From NCBI GenBank assembly GCA_027293415.1, contig JAPUFX010000163.1, positions 1-36,039 on the forward strand: 36,039 nt of DNA, in the 5' to 3' direction. The notes beneath the pieces are model-generated. The model saw only the letters and a list, made by a program, of their open reading frames with translations. It made no database searches and was not told where the DNA came from. Position 1 is the first letter of the stretch; the number at the start of each line of letters is the position of its first letter. Below, piece after piece: positions 1 through 6,173 of this stretch. Made by a program: the position numbers and the translations under genes. This stretch comes from Candidatus Methylomirabilota bacterium. GTDB taxonomy: Bacteria > Methylomirabilota > Methylomirabilia > Methylomirabilales > CSP1-5.

Positions 1-195
1 CCTTCCCACACATTCTCGATCCCTGCGCAAGTAGTATGGACGCGCGGGGAGGAACTCTCGCCGAGTGCCACCACCGGAATGGGAGTGAAGTTCCTCGAAG
101 TCAACCCCTCTTTAGAGGCTGCCCTGATAGACGCTGTCATCGATCGCCTTCGCGCGGAAGCCTCTCCCTCGCCGGATTCCTCCCAGTCCGAATAA
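1..195 (+). CDS. PilZ-domain protein, C-terminal end (5' cut by window edge)
   Basis: Frame 1 is open from the first base to a TAA at 193-195. The 64 visible residues match the end of a PilZ domain: an IPAQVVW strand, then GMGVKFLEVNP, then a helix and a Ser/Pro-rich tail (EASPSPDSS). PilZ domains bind cyclic di-GMP or act as inactive relatives in motility and polysaccharide control. The c-di-GMP-binding N-terminal RxxxR part would lie outside the window. The same tail and nearly the same residues end the protein at 33048-33752, so the two are recent paralogues. Nothing can be said about its start or promoter. Confidence 0.75.
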   Translation, partial: PSHTFSIPAQVVWTRGEELSPSATTGMGVKFLEVNPSLEAALIDAVIDRLRAEASPSPDSSQSE

Positions 196-300
196 CCAAG
201 CGCCAGATGTTGGTGACGGAAAATGATCACGCCCTCCCGCGGCTGTTTCACCCGTCCTTACCCCGGTTCCATCCCTGCTATTCCTAAGGGTCCCAAGCCT

Positions 301-461
301 CCACTACCGCTACAGAGTATACCAATATTCTTTCGCGTGAGTTACGGTGCGCAGTCGATGGTGGCGGGGGTGGGCCGGGGATAATGATCACCCGGGATAG
401 ATTGTCAAATAGAGCCTTGACGTCTTCCGCGATGTTGAAAAAGTCAAATGTCCCCTTTATT
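301..461. repeat. 160-bp direct repeat, copy A
   Basis: This stretch is nearly identical to 2088-2249, starting with ccactaccgctacag and ending with the gtcaaatgtcccc-type motif. A shorter piece of its right end recurs at 2592-2635. Both long copies lie just beyond the 3' end of a minus-strand gene (470-832 and 2245-2520). It contains no open frame that looks coding. It may be an intergenic mobile or recombinogenic element. Confidence 0.85.
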
Positions 462-469
462 AGGACTTC

Positions 470-832
470 CTAGCGGGATTTTTTGGACTTGGGCGCGGCT
501 TTGATTTTCTTGCTAGAGTTTACTGGAAGAGGATCCCACCCAAAGTGGAACCCGACCTTGTTCAGATACTCCCGGTTGTTGTCACAAAAAGCCACCCACT
601 TTTCATGTCCCAGTGCCCAGTTTTCCCATGCGGAGGCATGCGTGAAATACGGTTCACTCTGACGCGTGGCATCTTTGGGACCCGACATGCAATCTCGAAT
701 GTGTCGGCCGGCATCTTCATACTCCTTGGCCATTTGCATTCCAACGCTGTGCCGAATTTCCTCCGTGTACGTGATGGTCTGACCGTACACCGGGATCGGA
801 TGGGCTGGGATATCGTTGTCGTATAAGGGCAT
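470..832 (-). CDS. hypothetical protein, 120 aa
   Basis: I do not recognise a family. The chosen ATG (832) has a good Shine-Dalgarno CAGGAG nine bases upstream; the longer open frame up to 952 lacks one and its extra residues look like translated intergenic DNA. The protein is soluble, without signal peptide or membrane segment. It is rich in aromatic residues in the middle (WENWALGHEKW) and ends in a basic lysine-rich tail (KKIKAAPKSKKSR). A promoter of the TTGACA-17-GATGCT type lies about 150 bases upstream at 989-1017. It stands alone as a transcription unit, followed by the 160-bp repeat. Confidence 0.6.
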   Translation of the reverse strand: MPLYDNDIPAHPIPVYGQTITYTEEIRHSVGMQMAKEYEDAGRHIRDCMSGPKDATRQSEPYFTHASAWENWALGHEKWVAFCDNNREYLNKVGFHFGWDPLPVNSSKKIKAAPKSKKSR

Positions 833-988
833 GATTTTAAGCTCCTGAGATTTACGGAGATACGGCCGATAATGAAAACGCCTTCGCGGCTGTGCTTGAC
901 CCGCGAAGGCGACGCAACCCTTGTGCCACCAGTGGCCCGGGGCTCTGGCCACCCCGGTTCTATGCCTGTCCCTCCTGGGGAATGCCTC

Positions 989-1017
989 AGCATCCTTGAT
1001 AAGGTTAGGCGTGTCAA
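989..1017 (-). promoter_or_regulatory. sigma70-type promoter for the 470-832 gene
   Basis: On the minus strand TTGACA (1017-1012) is followed after exactly 17 bp by GATGCT (994-989). The flanks (TTGACACGCCT and GAGGC after the -10) match the promoter-like sites at 1700-1728, 2644-2672 and 2791-2821, so this is one of a family of related promoters. Confidence 0.55.
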
Positions 1018-1098
1018 AAACCTACACAGGCTGGTACAGCCGCCAAAAAATCAAGAGGGGAATGAGAGGAAGGCGGCAGGCACACAGTTTCTCTATGA

Positions 1099-1647
1099 TC
1101 ATTTCCTCTCTATCTGAACCTTGACACGCGTCCCAGTGCTAACAACATCGTACACAGGCGACAGCTTAGTTAATGCTTTCAGCTCTTCCACATCTTTCAG
1201 ATCCGTCTTGACTTTGAAATTTACCCGGATTTCCTGATAGCCTGGCCTGACTTCATCAGAGATTGCCAAAAAGCCCCTGAGGTCAAGATCGCCCTCCAAC
1301 GCCGATTCCACTTCGTCCAACTTTATACCGCGAACTGCGGCATGGTAGACCATGGTGGTAGTCATTCACGTTGCCAGAGCATTCAAAAGGTGCTCTACAG
1401 GATTCGGTCCTCGATCTTGTCCCGCCAGGATGGGGGGTTCGTCTGCAACCAGGGCAAATGGTTCGGCATGCGAAATCTCCTGACCGGCACTGTAAAAGCC
1501 TGTGATGGTAGTCCGATTGTATCCACCCTCGATCCATTCGTTGTTCGCTCGGAATTTGGACTTGGCAAGGGTAGGTTTCTCATTTACGGCCTTCACCAAA
1601 CCTACAACCGCATCCACATCCACACCGTTGAGAATTCTTCCCGACAT
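1099..1647 (-). CDS. OsmC-family protein, probable selenoprotein (UGA at residue 94)
   Basis: OsmC/Ohr proteins reduce organic peroxides through a reactive cysteine. Here two adjoining open segments in the same frame form one full-length OsmC protein of 182 residues, split only by a TGA at 1366-1368. The N-terminal part contains GPNPVEHLLNALAT and the C-terminal part begins MTTTMVYHAAVRG. In the family a cysteine stands exactly between these blocks, so the TGA replaces the catalytic Cys. A hairpin with a G in its apical loop lies 31 bases after the TGA (1325-1343), fitting the bacterial SECIS rule. The start ATG at 1647 has GGGAGG upstream; the ATG right after the TGA has no Shine-Dalgarno, arguing against a separate second gene. 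The usual second cysteine of Ohr is Ser here (LSPVYD). A single promoter lies at 1700-1728. The alternative is a nonsense mutation. Confidence 0.8.
1325..1343 (-). promoter_or_regulatory. SECIS-like hairpin of the OsmC selenoprotein gene
   Basis: On the minus strand ATGCCGC and GCGGTAT pair over seven positions (one G-U) around the five-base loop AGTTC. The loop G is second in the loop and is 31 bases after the TGA, within the 16-37 base window described for bacterial SECIS elements read by SelB. The hairpin lies inside the coding sequence, as expected for bacteria. Confidence 0.7.
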
Positions 1648-1699
1648 GGCATTGCCTCCCTGTTGTGAGATGAAGATTCCCTCTCCTGAACGGGGCCTG

Positions 1700-1728
1700 A
1701 GTATCCCCCAATGGGGCAGGCGTGTCAA
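1700..1728 (-). promoter_or_regulatory. sigma70-type promoter of the OsmC gene
   Basis: Minus strand TTGACA (1728-1723), a 17-bp spacer, then GATACT (1705-1700). Transcription would start about 45 bases before the ATG at 1647. The sequence around it is shared with the sites at 2644-2672 and 2791-2821. Confidence 0.65.
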
Positions 1729-1787
1729 GGTCGCGGAGAGGGTGGCGACGTGTCAATTGTAACGCGGTGACCGCAATTGCCCTCTCG

Positions 1788-2054
1788 CTATGCCAGCATC
1801 TCGTGGATTGTGCTTTCGTACTCAGGAAAATACTGGCTGATGACAGAAAGATTGAAGCGTCTCAAGATGCTGGTGTTGGGTTCTCGTTCGAGAAGGAATT
1901 CGAAGGATTTTTCCACCAACGTGGCCGGGGGAACGCGTTTGCCGCTGAGCTTTTCGTAATATGATGGATCGACTGTGACCGAGTGTTTCGTGGTCACGCG
2001 GCCTTGCACGGTGACCTCGAAGGTGCTGTCGTCAATTTGCTGAACGTCGATCAT
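1788..2054 (-). CDS. small conserved-type hypothetical protein, 88 aa
   Basis: Function unknown. The ATG at 2054 is preceded by GGAGG with a six-base spacer, a strong start. The protein has an N-terminal beta-rich half (STFEVTVQGRVTTKHSVTV) and a helical half with VEKSFEFLLEREPNTSIL and ISQYFPEY. This pattern resembles a small uncharacterised family I have seen in environmental bacteria, but I cannot attach a role to it. It has no signal peptide or membrane segment. It lies upstream of and parallel to the OsmC gene, about 140 bases away, but the OsmC gene has its own promoter. The 160-bp repeat B lies just upstream and may carry its promoter (a TATAAC box on the minus strand). Confidence 0.7.
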   Translation of the reverse strand: MIDVQQIDDSTFEVTVQGRVTTKHSVTVDPSYYEKLSGKRVPPATLVEKSFEFLLEREPNTSILRRFNLSVISQYFPEYESTIHEMLA

Positions 2055-2087
2055 CGGTAGCCTCCAACTTCACTCGTGCTACATTCT

Positions 2088-2249
2088 CCACTACCGCTAC
2101 AGCGTTATACCAATATTCTTTCGTGTGACGTACGGTGCGCAGTCGATGGTGGCGGGAGTGGGCCGGGGATTATGATCACCCGGGATAGATTGTAAAATAG
2201 AGCCTTGACGCCTTCCGCGATTGTGAAAAAGTCAAATGCCCCCTTTATT
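2088..2249. repeat. 160-bp direct repeat, copy B
   Basis: Near-identical to 301-461, with a handful of substitutions and single-base indels. Copy B overlaps the last few codons of the minus-strand gene ending at 2245 and lies 34 bases upstream of the ATG of the gene at 1788-2054. It could therefore supply that gene's promoter. Confidence 0.85.
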
Positions 2250-2520
2250 GCTTTTCCTTTGGGCCGGGCCAATACCCAATTTCCTTAAACTCATATTTCC
2301 TTCGCTCCACGTCGGGGCCGCCCAAGGCCAGTGTCCGAATCTCTCCCGTGTATGTGTCCAGGCGATGGACAAAAAAAGCGTCCCTGGGCGAGGCGATCTG
2401 ATAGCGAGCCGTCGTGCTACGGCTCATCAGGACCAAGGCCACTATCAGGGCAAACACCAAGGCCCCGGCCCACTTTAAGTAACGATGCTCCCGTTCCAGT
2501 CGGTTGAGGCGCTCGTCCAT
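2245..2520 (-). CDS. small single-pass membrane protein with coiled-coil N-terminus
   Basis: Ninety-one residues when started at the second of two adjacent ATGs (2520); AAGGAGG lies at a better distance from this ATG than from the one at 2523. The first 16 residues (DERLNRLEREHRYLKW) are a short amphipathic helix. A hydrophobic segment follows (WAGALVFALIVALVLM, about residues 16-32) and then a soluble domain that would be outside the membrane. No enzyme motif is visible. A similar LDKVERE-type N-terminus is found as a broken fragment at 35549-35629. A promoter with consensus boxes lies at 2644-2672. The function is unknown. Confidence 0.65.
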   Translation of the reverse strand: MDERLNRLEREHRYLKWAGALVFALIVALVLMSRSTTARYQIASPRDAFFVHRLDTYTGEIRTLALGGPDVERRKYEFKEIGYWPGPKEKQ

Positions 2521-2591
2521 CATCCCCTCCTTTTCGTTCAGGGTGCACTCCAGATGACCTTCCCAGCCTGGTCAAAGAAGGCCGGGCCCTA

Positions 2592-2635
2592 CTTGACACC
2601 TTCCGCGATTGTGAAAAAGTCAAATGTCCCCTTTG
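2592..2635. repeat. partial third copy of the 160-bp repeat end
   Basis: The 44 bases contain ttccgcgattgtgaaaaag and gtcaaatgtcccctttg, matching the right end of copies A (about 418-461) and B (about 2206-2249). Only the terminal quarter of the repeat is present, so this end can move or survive alone. Confidence 0.75.
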
Positions 2636-2643
2636 TGGTTCTA

Positions 2644-2672
2644 AGTATCCTGCGCCGGTGCGGGGGTGTCAA
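2644..2672 (-). promoter_or_regulatory. sigma70-type promoter for the gene at 2245-2520
   Basis: Minus strand TTGACA (2672-2667), 17-bp spacer, GATACT (2649-2644), followed by TAG as in the other family members. The downstream ATG is about 125 bases away, and the partial repeat 2592-2635 lies in the untranslated leader. Confidence 0.6.
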
Positions 2673-2790
2673 GGCCGCCAAAGGAGGAGGGTAATTCAAT
2701 AATTGGGGGGCGCTGGAACAATTGTGCCGGAGATGGGCTAGCAGCAATTCCTAGTCCGGTTGCATCCCAACTTATCCCGAAAGGGGCCTA

Positions 2791-2821
2791 AGTATCCCCC
2801 ACTGAGATCGGAGGGTGTCAA
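2791..2821 (-). promoter_or_regulatory. promoter-like sequence of the TTGACAC..GATACT family
   Basis: Minus strand TTGACA (2821-2816) and GATACT (2796-2791) are separated by 19 bp, longer than optimal. The surrounding GGGGGATACTTAGGCCCC is nearly the same as at 1700-1728. It points in the same direction as the 2644-2672 promoter and may be a decayed duplicate. Confidence 0.4.
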
Positions 2822-2876
2822 GCGCATCGAGTGTGTTATTGTGAGACCTGGCTCCACAACTTCCCATTGATCTGAG

Positions 2877-3209
2877 GTGCACCCATTGGCGAAAAGCCCA
2901 CGCTCTCACAAGCTAAGCGAGCGACACGCAACGGTACGGTCGGCGCTCAGGCAGGTACTCAGGGAGCGCTCGCTCACGGCTCGTGAGCTCTCGGCGCGTG
3001 TCGGGATCGGCGAGAAAGAAGTCTCCGGCCACCTCGAGCACGTAGCGCGTTCGCTCAGGCATAGCGGCGAGCGCTTGCGTGTCGAACCGGCGCAATGCCT
3101 CGCCTGCGAATTCGTCTTCAAGCAGCGCACTCGACTGAGCAAGCCGTCCAAGTGTCCCGTGTGCAGGAGTCAGCGCTTGGACCCACCGCGCTTTATCATC
3201 CTCACATAG
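2877..3209 (+). CDS. HTH plus zinc-ribbon transcriptional regulator (COG3357-like)
   Basis: A 110-residue predicted DNA-binding protein. Residues 20-65 form a winged-helix type helix-turn-helix (LTARELSARVGIGEKEVSGHLEHV). Residues 74-101 form a zinc ribbon with two CxxC knuckles (CLAC and CPVC). This two-domain layout is that of small predicted regulators grouped as COG3357, whose targets are not known. The GTG at 2877 is given as start; a TTG at 2886 has GAGG at a better distance and is a good alternative. The stop codon TAG overlaps the first base of a 23-bp repeat (3207-3229). It faces budA convergently, so a regulatory link is not implied. Confidence 0.75.
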   Translation: MHPLAKSPRSHKLSERHATVRSALRQVLRERSLTARELSARVGIGEKEVSGHLEHVARSLRHSGERLRVEPAQCLACEFVFKQRTRLSKPSKCPVCRSQRLDPPRFIILT

Positions 3210-3229
3210 CAAATCGCAAGCCTGACCCC
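3207..3229. repeat. 23-bp direct repeat, left copy flanking budA
   Basis: The sequence tagcaaatcgcaagcctg followed by acccc is identical to 4103-4125. The two copies bracket the acetolactate decarboxylase gene. Read on the minus strand it begins GGGGTCAGGCTTGC, similar in form to other GGGGTCA/GGGGACA repeats in this window. Confidence 0.85.
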
Positions 3230-3281
3230 CACTCTTCTACACACCCAAGTGCTCGAAGTTATTTAATCTCCTGTTTAGCTC

Positions 3282-4088
3282 TTATTCCTCTGCCTGGCGC
3301 AGCGTTTCTCGTTGGTCTTGGGACAAGTCGGCGTTCAAGAACATTCCCTCCTTGGGTAGTTCCATATGGAAATTCGACGTATGTTCGACCGCGAGCTTCC
3401 CCCGTTGCAGTTGGAGGTCGAGGACGTGCCCGCCTGCCTTGTGGTCCTCGGTGAGAAAGTGCAGGTGGTAGCCCGGCATATTCATGCCTTGGGCGTAGTC
3501 GGGAAAGCGAAAGCCCACAAGCGCGCCCGAAACGTCAAAGAACTCGAAGACTGGCTGGGTCTTTGTCACCTCGACTAATGGGGGGTACGGTTTGGTCTGC
3601 CGAGGCACACTCCTTGTTTTGACGTATTTGAAAAGGCCATCAAGGCGGATTGCGTAGAAGAAATTCATTATTGGAATCACGGTCTGCAAGTAGTCTTTGA
3701 GTTGTTCGTACTCCATCTCGCGGTCGATCACGTAGTGGGCTTCTGGCTCGAAAAACTGCACAACCGCAAATGGCGTCTTCTGTGCGTCGTCCACGGGGTA
3801 GGCGACGCCATCCGACTTTACTTGGTAAAAGTTTCCGTTCAAAGCGATCATCTCCCCGTCCAAGGCGTTGAAGGTGCCAAGACCGAAGTCACCATGTTCA
3901 CGCAACCCCCCATAGGTCATTTCGCCATCGTAAATCCCTTCGAGTAAGGCATTGATCGTTGAGGTCTGAAAGACTTCATGTGCGTGGCGGTGGTCGCTCT
4001 CGTGCACCCGGGAGTGCTTGCCGTGGGGATGTTTTCGGTGATGCCGGAGAGCGTGAAGAAACTGAATGAATTTTTCCTCAATGGCCAT
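3282..4088 (-). CDS. budA: alpha-acetolactate decarboxylase
   Basis: Converts (S)-2-acetolactate to acetoin and CO2 (EC 4.1.1.5), diverting pyruvate-derived acetolactate from valine/leucine synthesis to acetoin or butanediol. The 268-residue product has the family's blocks: an N-terminal substrate-pocket region around TINALLEGIYDGEMTYGGL, GLGTFNALDGEMIALNG, and the zinc site GYHLHFL followed nine residues later by GGH, giving the HxH...H ligand set. The open frame runs on to 4211, but the ATG at 4088 begins the normal N-terminus, and the extension would translate a 23-bp repeat. No acetolactate synthase or butanediol dehydrogenase is adjacent, so the gene stands alone. The flanking direct repeats suggest it may have arrived as a cassette. 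Confidence 0.9.
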   Translation of the reverse strand: MAIEEKFIQFLHALRHHRKHPHGKHSRVHESDHRHAHEVFQTSTINALLEGIYDGEMTYGGLREHGDFGLGTFNALDGEMIALNGNFYQVKSDGVAYPVDDAQKTPFAVVQFFEPEAHYVIDREMEYEQLKDYLQTVIPIMNFFYAIRLDGLFKYVKTRSVPRQTKPYPPLVEVTKTQPVFEFFDVSGALVGFRFPDYAQGMNMPGYHLHFLTEDHKAGGHVLDLQLQRGKLAVEHTSNFHMELPKEGMFLNADLSQDQRETLRQAEE

Positions 4089-4102
4089 AAGACTTGCCCC
4101 TG

Positions 4103-4125
4103 TAGCAAATCGCAAGCCTGACCCC
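4103..4125. repeat. 23-bp direct repeat, right copy flanking budA
   Basis: Identical to 3207-3229 and in the same orientation. It lies 15 bases upstream of the budA ATG, so it forms part of the budA leader. Confidence 0.85.
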
Positions 4126-4336
4126 ATCCCTAATGCTTCTTCTTTCTGGTGACCTTCATCTTGTCCTGCTGTACCTGCTTGCCAGGTGCTCGGGGCAAAC
4201 GCACTCTCCAAATCTTCTTTCTTGGCTTCTGTAGCTTTCCCACGAGAACTGTACGCCTCTCTCTAACGGGGTGTTGGGCAATAAAATAAATCTGTCCCCG
4301 ATTTTCAGCTAGTGCCCCTCCAACTCACTCCTCCTA

Positions 4337-4407
4337 AGCACCCCAGGGTTCCGCCGGGGGCACTGAGGGGTTGTAGGGGAGAGGCTCCCCTACGCCTGGG
4401 GGGTGCT
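4337..4407. repeat. nested palindrome, possible REP-like structure
   Basis: Outer arms agcaccccagg (4337-4347) and cctggggggtgct (4395-4407) are complementary apart from a two-base bulge. An inner perfect 8-bp hairpin GTAGGGGA/TCCCCTAC (4373-4393) sits inside. Folded as RNA or single-stranded DNA it would give a branched structure. There is no T-run, so it does not look like a simple terminator. Confidence 0.6.
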
Positions 4408-4457
4408 CAGCGAGGCGAACGCCGAGTGCCGAAGGGGGGGCCTGCCCCCCTAGCGGA

Positions 4458-4521
4458 AGTGCCGCACCAGCGCGGAATACTCGTGAGAAATAGTTGGTGC
4501 GGCACTAGTTGGTGCGGCACT
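4458..4521. repeat. 12-bp inverted repeat with tandem duplicated right arm
   Basis: AGTGCCGCACCA (4458-4469) is complementary to TGGTGCGGCACT at 4495-4506, and the right arm is repeated directly at 4510-4521. It lies just downstream of the adenine deaminase stop codon and might act as its transcript end or as a mobile palindrome. Confidence 0.7.
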
Positions 4522-4529
4522 AGGGATGG

Positions 4530-6173
4530 TTAGGAAGTCTCTATCAGCAGTGGGACTATCTGACCCGTTTTGACCTGGACAAGCCCGCGCTCCCTGAGCC
4601 TCAAGGCCGGAATCGCGGTGAAGGTAAGGGCCTGGAGGGTGAGGAGGGGATCCTGAAGCAGTGAGCCCAGGTCTTTGAGCACCCGCTTTATTCGATCGAG
4701 CTTCTCGGCCAAGTTCGGGACCGGCTCTTCGCTAATGATCCCCCCGATCGGCATGGGGAGCTCCTCTACGACCTCCCCATCGACTACTACGACAAAGCCG
4801 CCGCCGATCTCTACCAATCGGTTCAGAACTCGTGCGATATCTGCATCCCGGGCCCCGACGGCCACTAGATTGCTCACGTCGTAGGAAAGGCTCGAGGCAA
4901 CCGCCCCTTGCCGCAGGCCAAATCCTTTGACGAACCCGACCGTCCTCTGCCCAAGACCTCTCCGGTCAAAGACGGCAGCCTTCAGAACATCCGCTTGAGG
5001 CTCCATGATCACCTCTCCCCCCTCGACCGGCAGTGACAGTGTGAGTTCCCGTGTCAGAATGGGTCCCGCAATGCCTAGAACCCTCACCTGGGTCCACCCA
5101 CCTAAGCGGTCCGCAGGGACTTTGAGATCCCCCGGCGTGAGAGGGTGCGGCAACGTAGGCGCGGGGAGAACCCGCCGGATTTGAGAATTCCCCTTGACCC
5201 TTACGAGACATCTTCCGTCCTGCGCCACCACGCTACCCTTACTAATTACCACCTCGGGTTCCATCCGCGTAAGATCCGGAACTACCAAGAGGTTGGCATA
5301 CTTGCCCGGACCAAGGCCCCCCACCAGGTGGTCGAGACCGAAGTGCTCGGCACAGGAGAGGCTGGCCGCCCGGACTGCCGCAACGCGATCGAGACCAAGC
5401 TCGATGGCACGGCGGACCGCATGGTCCATGACGCCCCGGCGCAAGAGATCATCGGGCCAGACAGTATCGGTTACCAGGATCAGACGCCGGAGATCCACCC
5501 CGGACGAGACCACTTCCTTCAGGACGCCCAGGTCCTGCCGCACCGAACCCTCCCGAACCATTGTATGTACCCCCAGGCGAAGCCGGTCGATCACGTCCTC
5601 TGGTGTGATTGACTCGTGGCAGGAGCCGATTCCGAGGCCCATGTACTGCTGGAGCTTCCACCCGCGGGCCCCGGCGGCGTGCCCCTCCACCTGCTTTCGC
5701 AGACGACGGGCCTTTTCGATCAGGGCCATGAGGTCGGGCGGGGCCTGCAGTGCGAGATGCCAGTAGACCTCCCCGAGCCCCAGCACGAGAGGGTGCTCCA
5801 GCAGGTCTGCCACTTCGTCAGATGAAATGGCCGACCGGCCATCCCCCCGGTCAGAGCAGAGAAGGGAGATAGAAGGAGCGGTGGTGTAAACCAGAATCGG
5901 GAGGTCCTCCAGACCCGCCAGGAAGGTCCGGAAGGCTGCGGCCCCTCCTACATTTGCCACGTGGACTAACTCTGTAATGACAGTGGTGAGTCCCCTTGGC
6001 ACGGCCTCATACAGGAACTCATGCAGGCTTTGGATGTTATCTAGGTGGGTGTGTCCATCAATCAGACCCGGGGTGAGATACTTACCTGCCGCCTCGACAA
6101 TTTTGGTCTCGGGACCAATAAGATGGCTGAGGTCGAGGCCTAAAGCGACAATCCGCTCCCCGCGAATCGCCAC
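4530..6173 (-). CDS. ade: adenine deaminase (start codon unclear)
   Basis: Amidohydrolase that converts adenine to hypoxanthine and ammonia (EC 3.5.4.2) in purine salvage. Motifs visible: LTPGLIDGHTHLDN (metal-binding HxH), an EVYWH segment, EGHAAG, SCHES, and the C-terminal adenine-deaminase domain with GGGFVVVVDGEVVEELPMPIGGI. GTG at 6173 gives 547 residues, but homology clearly continues upstream in frame: DLVVRGGTLLNVYTGELLEGWG, the usual first strands, is encoded at about 6175-6240. No ATG, GTG or TTG occurs in frame before a TGA at 6300-6302. CTG codons at 6290 and 6284, the former behind GGGGGAGGG, would give about 586 residues, the usual length. A CTG start or a damaged 5' end are both possible. 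Confidence 0.88.
   Translation of the reverse strand: MAIRGERIVALGLDLSHLIGPETKIVEAAGKYLTPGLIDGHTHLDNIQSLHEFLYEAVPRGLTTVITELVHVANVGGAAAFRTFLAGLEDLPILVYTTAPSISLLCSDRGDGRSAISSDEVADLLEHPLVLGLGEVYWHLALQAPPDLMALIEKARRLRKQVEGHAAGARGWKLQQYMGLGIGSCHESITPEDVIDRLRLGVHTMVREGSVRQDLGVLKEVVSSGVDLRRLILVTDTVWPDDLLRRGVMDHAVRRAIELGLDRVAAVRAASLSCAEHFGLDHLVGGLGPGKYANLLVVPDLTRMEPEVVISKGSVVAQDGRCLVRVKGNSQIRRVLPAPTLPHPLTPGDLKVPADRLGGWTQVRVLGIAGPILTRELTLSLPVEGGEVIMEPQADVLKAAVFDRRGLGQRTVGFVKGFGLRQGAVASSLSYDVSNLVAVGARDADIARVLNRLVEIGGGFVVVVDGEVVEELPMPIGGIISEEPVPNLAEKLDRIKRVLKDLGSLLQDPLLTLQALTFTAIPALRLRERGLVQVKTGQIVPLLIETS

Follow-up and report, generated by a model that had tools for sequence, protein, structure and literature searches.

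Does the TGA at 1368-1366 of the window (the whole stretch of 36,039 nucleotides of Candidatus Methylomirabilota DNA analysed here) end a short gene, or does it encode selenocysteine (Sec) at the reactive site of a full-length OsmC-like protein? An OsmC-domain frame of 182 residues is interrupted only by this TGA, as an earlier note on this DNA had claimed without giving the strand; the frame proved to lie on the minus strand, and the plus-strand frame of 1099-1647, which was also examined, is not OsmC. The features discussed below are the following.

1099..1647, minus strand: osmC-like gene, predicted selenoprotein of 182 residues plus stop, Sec at codon 94
1366..1368, minus strand: in-frame TGA (predicted UGA-Sec), codon 94, on the reactive-Cys position
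1099..1101, minus strand: terminating TGA of the osmC-like gene, where the homologue alignment stops
1655..1660, minus strand: Shine-Dalgarno sequence GGGAGG for ATG 1647 (sequence AACAGGGAGGCAATGCCATG)
1325..1343, minus strand: putative bSECIS hairpin AUGCCGC-AGUUC-GCGGUAU, stem of 7 bp, with the apical loop starting 29 nt downstream of the UGA

The reading frame across the TGA

The gene starts at ATG 1647-1645, and the GGGAGG motif ends 7 nt upstream of it. The read-through protein matches the Pfam OsmC domain (PF02566) with 57.7 bits (E 1.7e-15), above the gathering cut-off of 27.5 bits, and the domain spans the TGA. A homologue scan of one genome per species, covering about 85,000 species, returned 76 related loci. 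The position of U94 is TGC or TGT in 68 of the 68 Cys homologues scored, which bears out the earlier claim that the TGA falls on the conserved reactive Cys; eight distinct genomes have TGA there. These belong to two Methylomirabilis species and six delta-type MAGs labelled Deltaproteobacteria, Desulfobacterales, Desulfobacteraceae, Syntrophobacterales or Proteobacteria. The second Methylomirabilis, Candidatus Methylomirabilis MAG-BB-18 (the same gene as in genome G004), has a full-length, TGA-containing orthologue that is 97% identical.

If the UGA were a true stop, the downstream ATG would begin a second polypeptide, or the gene would be decaying. An ATG does stand straight after the TGA, and standard gene callers would split the locus there. 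However, the same TGA occurs within an intact flanking frame in all eight genomes, and a stop would break the OsmC domain at its reactive residue. ATG 1365 has no Shine-Dalgarno sequence (GGCAACGTGAATG), in agreement with the earlier note, which had found it to lack a ribosome-binding site, and the Met95 that it specifies is not conserved (Ile in L053). Moreover, dN/dS on the 3' side of the TGA is 0.07-0.29 for every pair among six Sec genes, well below 1, and is similar on the 5' side. Both halves of the gene are under purifying selection, and the similarity of dN/dS on the two sides means that the 3' half, too, is translated into protein. That the locus holds two separate genes or a pseudogene is highly improbable.

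The window's genome was searched family by family for the Sec machinery, and the four components that the earlier note had named as a check are all present: selA (616.7 bits), selB (389 bits) and selD (402.8 bits), each over its cut-off, and tRNA-Sec (selC, 75.9 bits) with the anticodon TCA. Among the seven other TGA-bearing genomes, selA exceeds the cut-off in six and the seventh has selB, while tRNA-Sec exceeds it in five, the two misses being fragmented MAGs. The genome with the TGA-bearing locus L080 (G082) has selB and neither selA nor tRNA-Sec over cut-off; it is probably an incomplete MAG. The selD gene of the window's genome (L124:1501-2427, G000:C34) is a selenoprotein gene itself, with an in-frame TGA in HGAGUACK.

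A UGA read as Trp, Cys or Gly, through code reassignment or by a suppressor tRNA, would fit the conserved read-through. Yet UGA stops this same gene at 1101-1099, tRNA-Sec(UCA), SelA and SelB are present, and the hairpin described below is conserved; besides the TGA genomes, the homologues carry Cys at this position, never Trp or Gly. We regard such a reading as extremely improbable. A sequencing or assembly error turning TGC or TGT into TGA, conceivable in a single MAG assembly and raised in the earlier note as a possible refutation, has a negligible probability and is refuted by independent assemblies, as the TGA recurs in seven further distinct genomes (another Methylomirabilis and the six delta-type genomes). 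Judged from these comparisons, it is almost certain that the in-frame TGA stands for selenocysteine in the reactive position.

The hairpin downstream of the TGA

The published bSECIS rule demands a loop of 3-9 nt with a G in the first two positions, a stem of 4-16 bp, and a distance of 16-37 nt between the UGA and the loop (PMC13188914). The hairpin at 1343-1325, whose loop AGUUC has a G at position 2, lies within these limits. The earlier note was right that a hairpin with a loop G fits the rule, but the fit alone is little proof: a loose form of the rule is satisfied by 3147 of 20,000 synonymous resamples (16%) and by 15 of the 68 Cys homologues. As stand-alone evidence the rule was rejected, being obeyed too frequently by chance.

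The same hairpin (7 bp, loop AGUUC, 29 nt after the UGA) is present in all Sec members, and the sole variation in its stem is a change from G-U to G-C. Codons 102-106 (CAT GCC GCA GTT CGC) are all invariant across the eight Sec genes, the proteins of which are 66-97% identical, and outside these codons no two neighbouring codons are invariant. Among informative codons, 5 of 7 are invariant in the hairpin vs 14 of 83 outside it (Fisher p 0.004), and a run as long appeared in 447 of 100,000 trials with permuted flags (p 0.0045), shared ancestry being not fully removed from either value. In the Cys homologue sets, none of the 5 informative codons of that region is invariant. Pairwise codon-identity tests within the hairpin were not significant for most pairs, and the whole set alone is; an Rfam scan of window positions 1-5000 gave no SECIS family match. 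The hairpin is significant because its sequence is conserved beyond coding need in the Sec set, not because it obeys the rule. Its conservation suggests that it would direct Sec insertion, the UGA at 1368-1366 being read by SelB and tRNA-Sec.

Known relatives and proposed chemistry

An 'OsmC-like protein' with the motif UxxT has been on record as a selenoprotein since 2005 (PMC1088965), and OsmC-like selenoproteins are likewise found on a 2008 list (PMC2398784) and in current inventories (PMC13188914), so the precedent cited in the earlier note is correct. The published proteins (COG1765/PF02566) share with the present one the OsmC domain, a Sec replacing the first conserved Cys and a bSECIS downstream, and their UxxT motif recurs here as U94-M-T-T97, a likeness at the level of motif and description. 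They come from the Sargasso Sea and GOS marine metagenomes, whereas the present clade is non-marine. The osmC-like selenoprotein belongs to an already reported selenoprotein kind. A search of the literature on Methylomirabilis selenoproteins led only to a review, which mentions a Methylomirabilota MAG with 63 predicted selenoprotein genes.

The best NCBIfam match is NF041052 (OsmC_like_Se), which covers the Sec site and scores 53.1 bits against a curated cut-off of 95 bits; the closest Sec relatives likewise score only 52-55 bits. PDB 2opl, the nearest protein of solved structure, is a hypothetical OsmC-like protein for which no function is named; it is of the same subfamily over the full length (E 3.7e-48 with the single sequence, 1.8e-69 with a profile) and has Cys in place of the Sec. 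The fold of the osmC-like protein is fixed by this sequence match.

Ohr and OsmC are peroxidases in which Arg and Glu neighbour the reactive residue and a second Cys is present (PMC4069020, PMC8945050). The osmC-like protein shares with them the OsmC fold and the position of the peroxidatic Cys, but the residue aligned to the OhrB Glu (NPE motif) is Val84, NPVE being invariant in the family, and their resolving Cys has no counterpart, as Sec94 is the sole Cys/Sec residue. The N-terminal part, the region of the active-site Arg, is not alignable to OhrB, and the NCBIfam Ohr and OsmC models do not match the protein. The YhfA class, which is without Arg and Glu and is uncharacterised (PMC8945050), likewise lacks the neighbouring Glu but keeps two cysteines, where the osmC-like protein has Sec94 only. 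The earlier placing of Sec on the conserved Cys stands; 'catalytic position' is better worded as 'reactive-Cys position', because neither the active-site Glu of Ohr/OsmC nor their second Cys is kept in this protein.

Proteins of the OsmC fold employ a reactive Cys where Sec94 stands here. In the proposed chemistry, Sec94 would react with an oxidant or electrophile; most likely its selenolate would attack an oxidised substrate, and a thiol would then reduce the selenenic acid or selenosulfide. This reductant would have to be an external thiol and not an internal resolving Cys, as there is no other Cys or Sec residue. On the sequence features, the most likely function is that of a one-selenol redox enzyme regenerated by an external thiol, and a peroxidase activity may only be inferred. 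A selenoprotein that is not a peroxidase-type redox enzyme, serving instead in the binding of alkylating agents or metal(loid)s or in a lipoyl/thiol-transfer role, is possible, though on balance we doubt it. The missing Ohr-type Glu and resolving Cys speak for such a role, as does the related, uncharacterised YhfA class, in which Arg and Glu are missing; the retention of the reactive Cys/Sec position and of the OsmC fold speaks against it, and so does the fact that Sec mostly serves redox catalysis.

The window's genome also encodes a second, distant OsmC-like protein (L035:1393-1824; G000:C133, 23630-23944) whose frame likewise contains a TGA at the corresponding position, in the motif GALGA-U-MGIT, and which retains a second Cys (RCPTHK). 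Many genomes belonging to the same class have similar TGA copies, with a different putative SECIS hairpin whose loops are, for example, UGUA.

Probable gain, transfer and loss of selenocysteine

When the Sec or Cys label was mapped on a tree of 73 proteins, two changes sufficed, both forced by supported branches, and none of 500 shuffles gave a number as low. Sec was gained at the base of a nine-member clade (support 100/99). The reversion to Cys is found in L048 (L048:3001-3543), nested inside the Sec clade, where the codon is TGT and synonymous changes have occurred at two hairpin positions that are invariant in the Sec genes. The L048 genome retains selA and tRNA-Sec; here Sec apparently reverted to Cys and the machinery was kept.

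The Methylomirabilis pair is placed among delta-type sequences in the tree. The osmC DNA is about 88% identical to L047 and L049, with unrelated flanks, and the OsmC proteins are 83-85% identical, compared with 65% for the conserved CarB of the same delta genomes. The flanking genes match only the other Methylomirabilis genome, and the osmC-like gene is present in only two of the seven genomes of the genus. This distribution is best read as a single-gene horizontal transfer between phyla, probably into Methylomirabilis. The gene would have originated through one Cys-to-Sec change within a Cys-type subfamily, spread by single-gene transfer between delta-type bacteria and Methylomirabilis, and later reverted to Cys at least once.

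The neighbouring frames at 470-835, 1788-2054 and 2245-2523 have no Pfam match; their conservation extends only to the other Methylomirabilis, and they therefore give no functional clue. A 163-bp direct repeat (93% identical) at 299-461 and 2086-2249 flanks the osmC segment on both sides. Part of a third copy lies at 2592-2634 and another copy on contig C193; in the sister genome the copy corresponding to 299-461 is absent at that place. Further along the window, 4304-4510 is an interspersed repeat of about 200 bp that the genome matches, in full or in part, about 50 times, and several of these matches lie at contig ends. It overlaps a sub-threshold Rfam match (RF02937, 33.3 vs 58.6 bits) and resembles a MITE-type element at which the assembly breaks.

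Taken jointly, a single OsmC-like Sec gene, decoded through SelB, tRNA-Sec and the hairpin, with a one-selenol redox product and a history of gain, transfer and reversion, is an account in which we place high confidence. It also seems fairly likely that the protein represents a distinct OsmC-like subfamily, with Sec as its sole Cys/Sec residue and no Ohr Glu, in which Sec was gained once, moved alone between phyla together with its SECIS, and was lost once with drift of the SECIS.

These results correct an osmC-like gene that automatic annotation splits, and they add a non-marine, cross-phylum clade to the OsmC-like selenoproteins. The close Sec and Cys orthologues, 80% identical and with the Cys one inside the Sec clade, would make the benefit of selenium in this fold directly measurable and, if the reading is true, would offer a naturally occurring series of Sec and Cys forms for comparison, in a protein without the Ohr active-site Glu. 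The locus also documents the passage of a selenoprotein gene, best read as a transfer, between phyla that both possess the Sec machinery. Its main added interest lies in a gain, an inter-phylum transfer and a loss of selenocysteine that can be traced within one gene.
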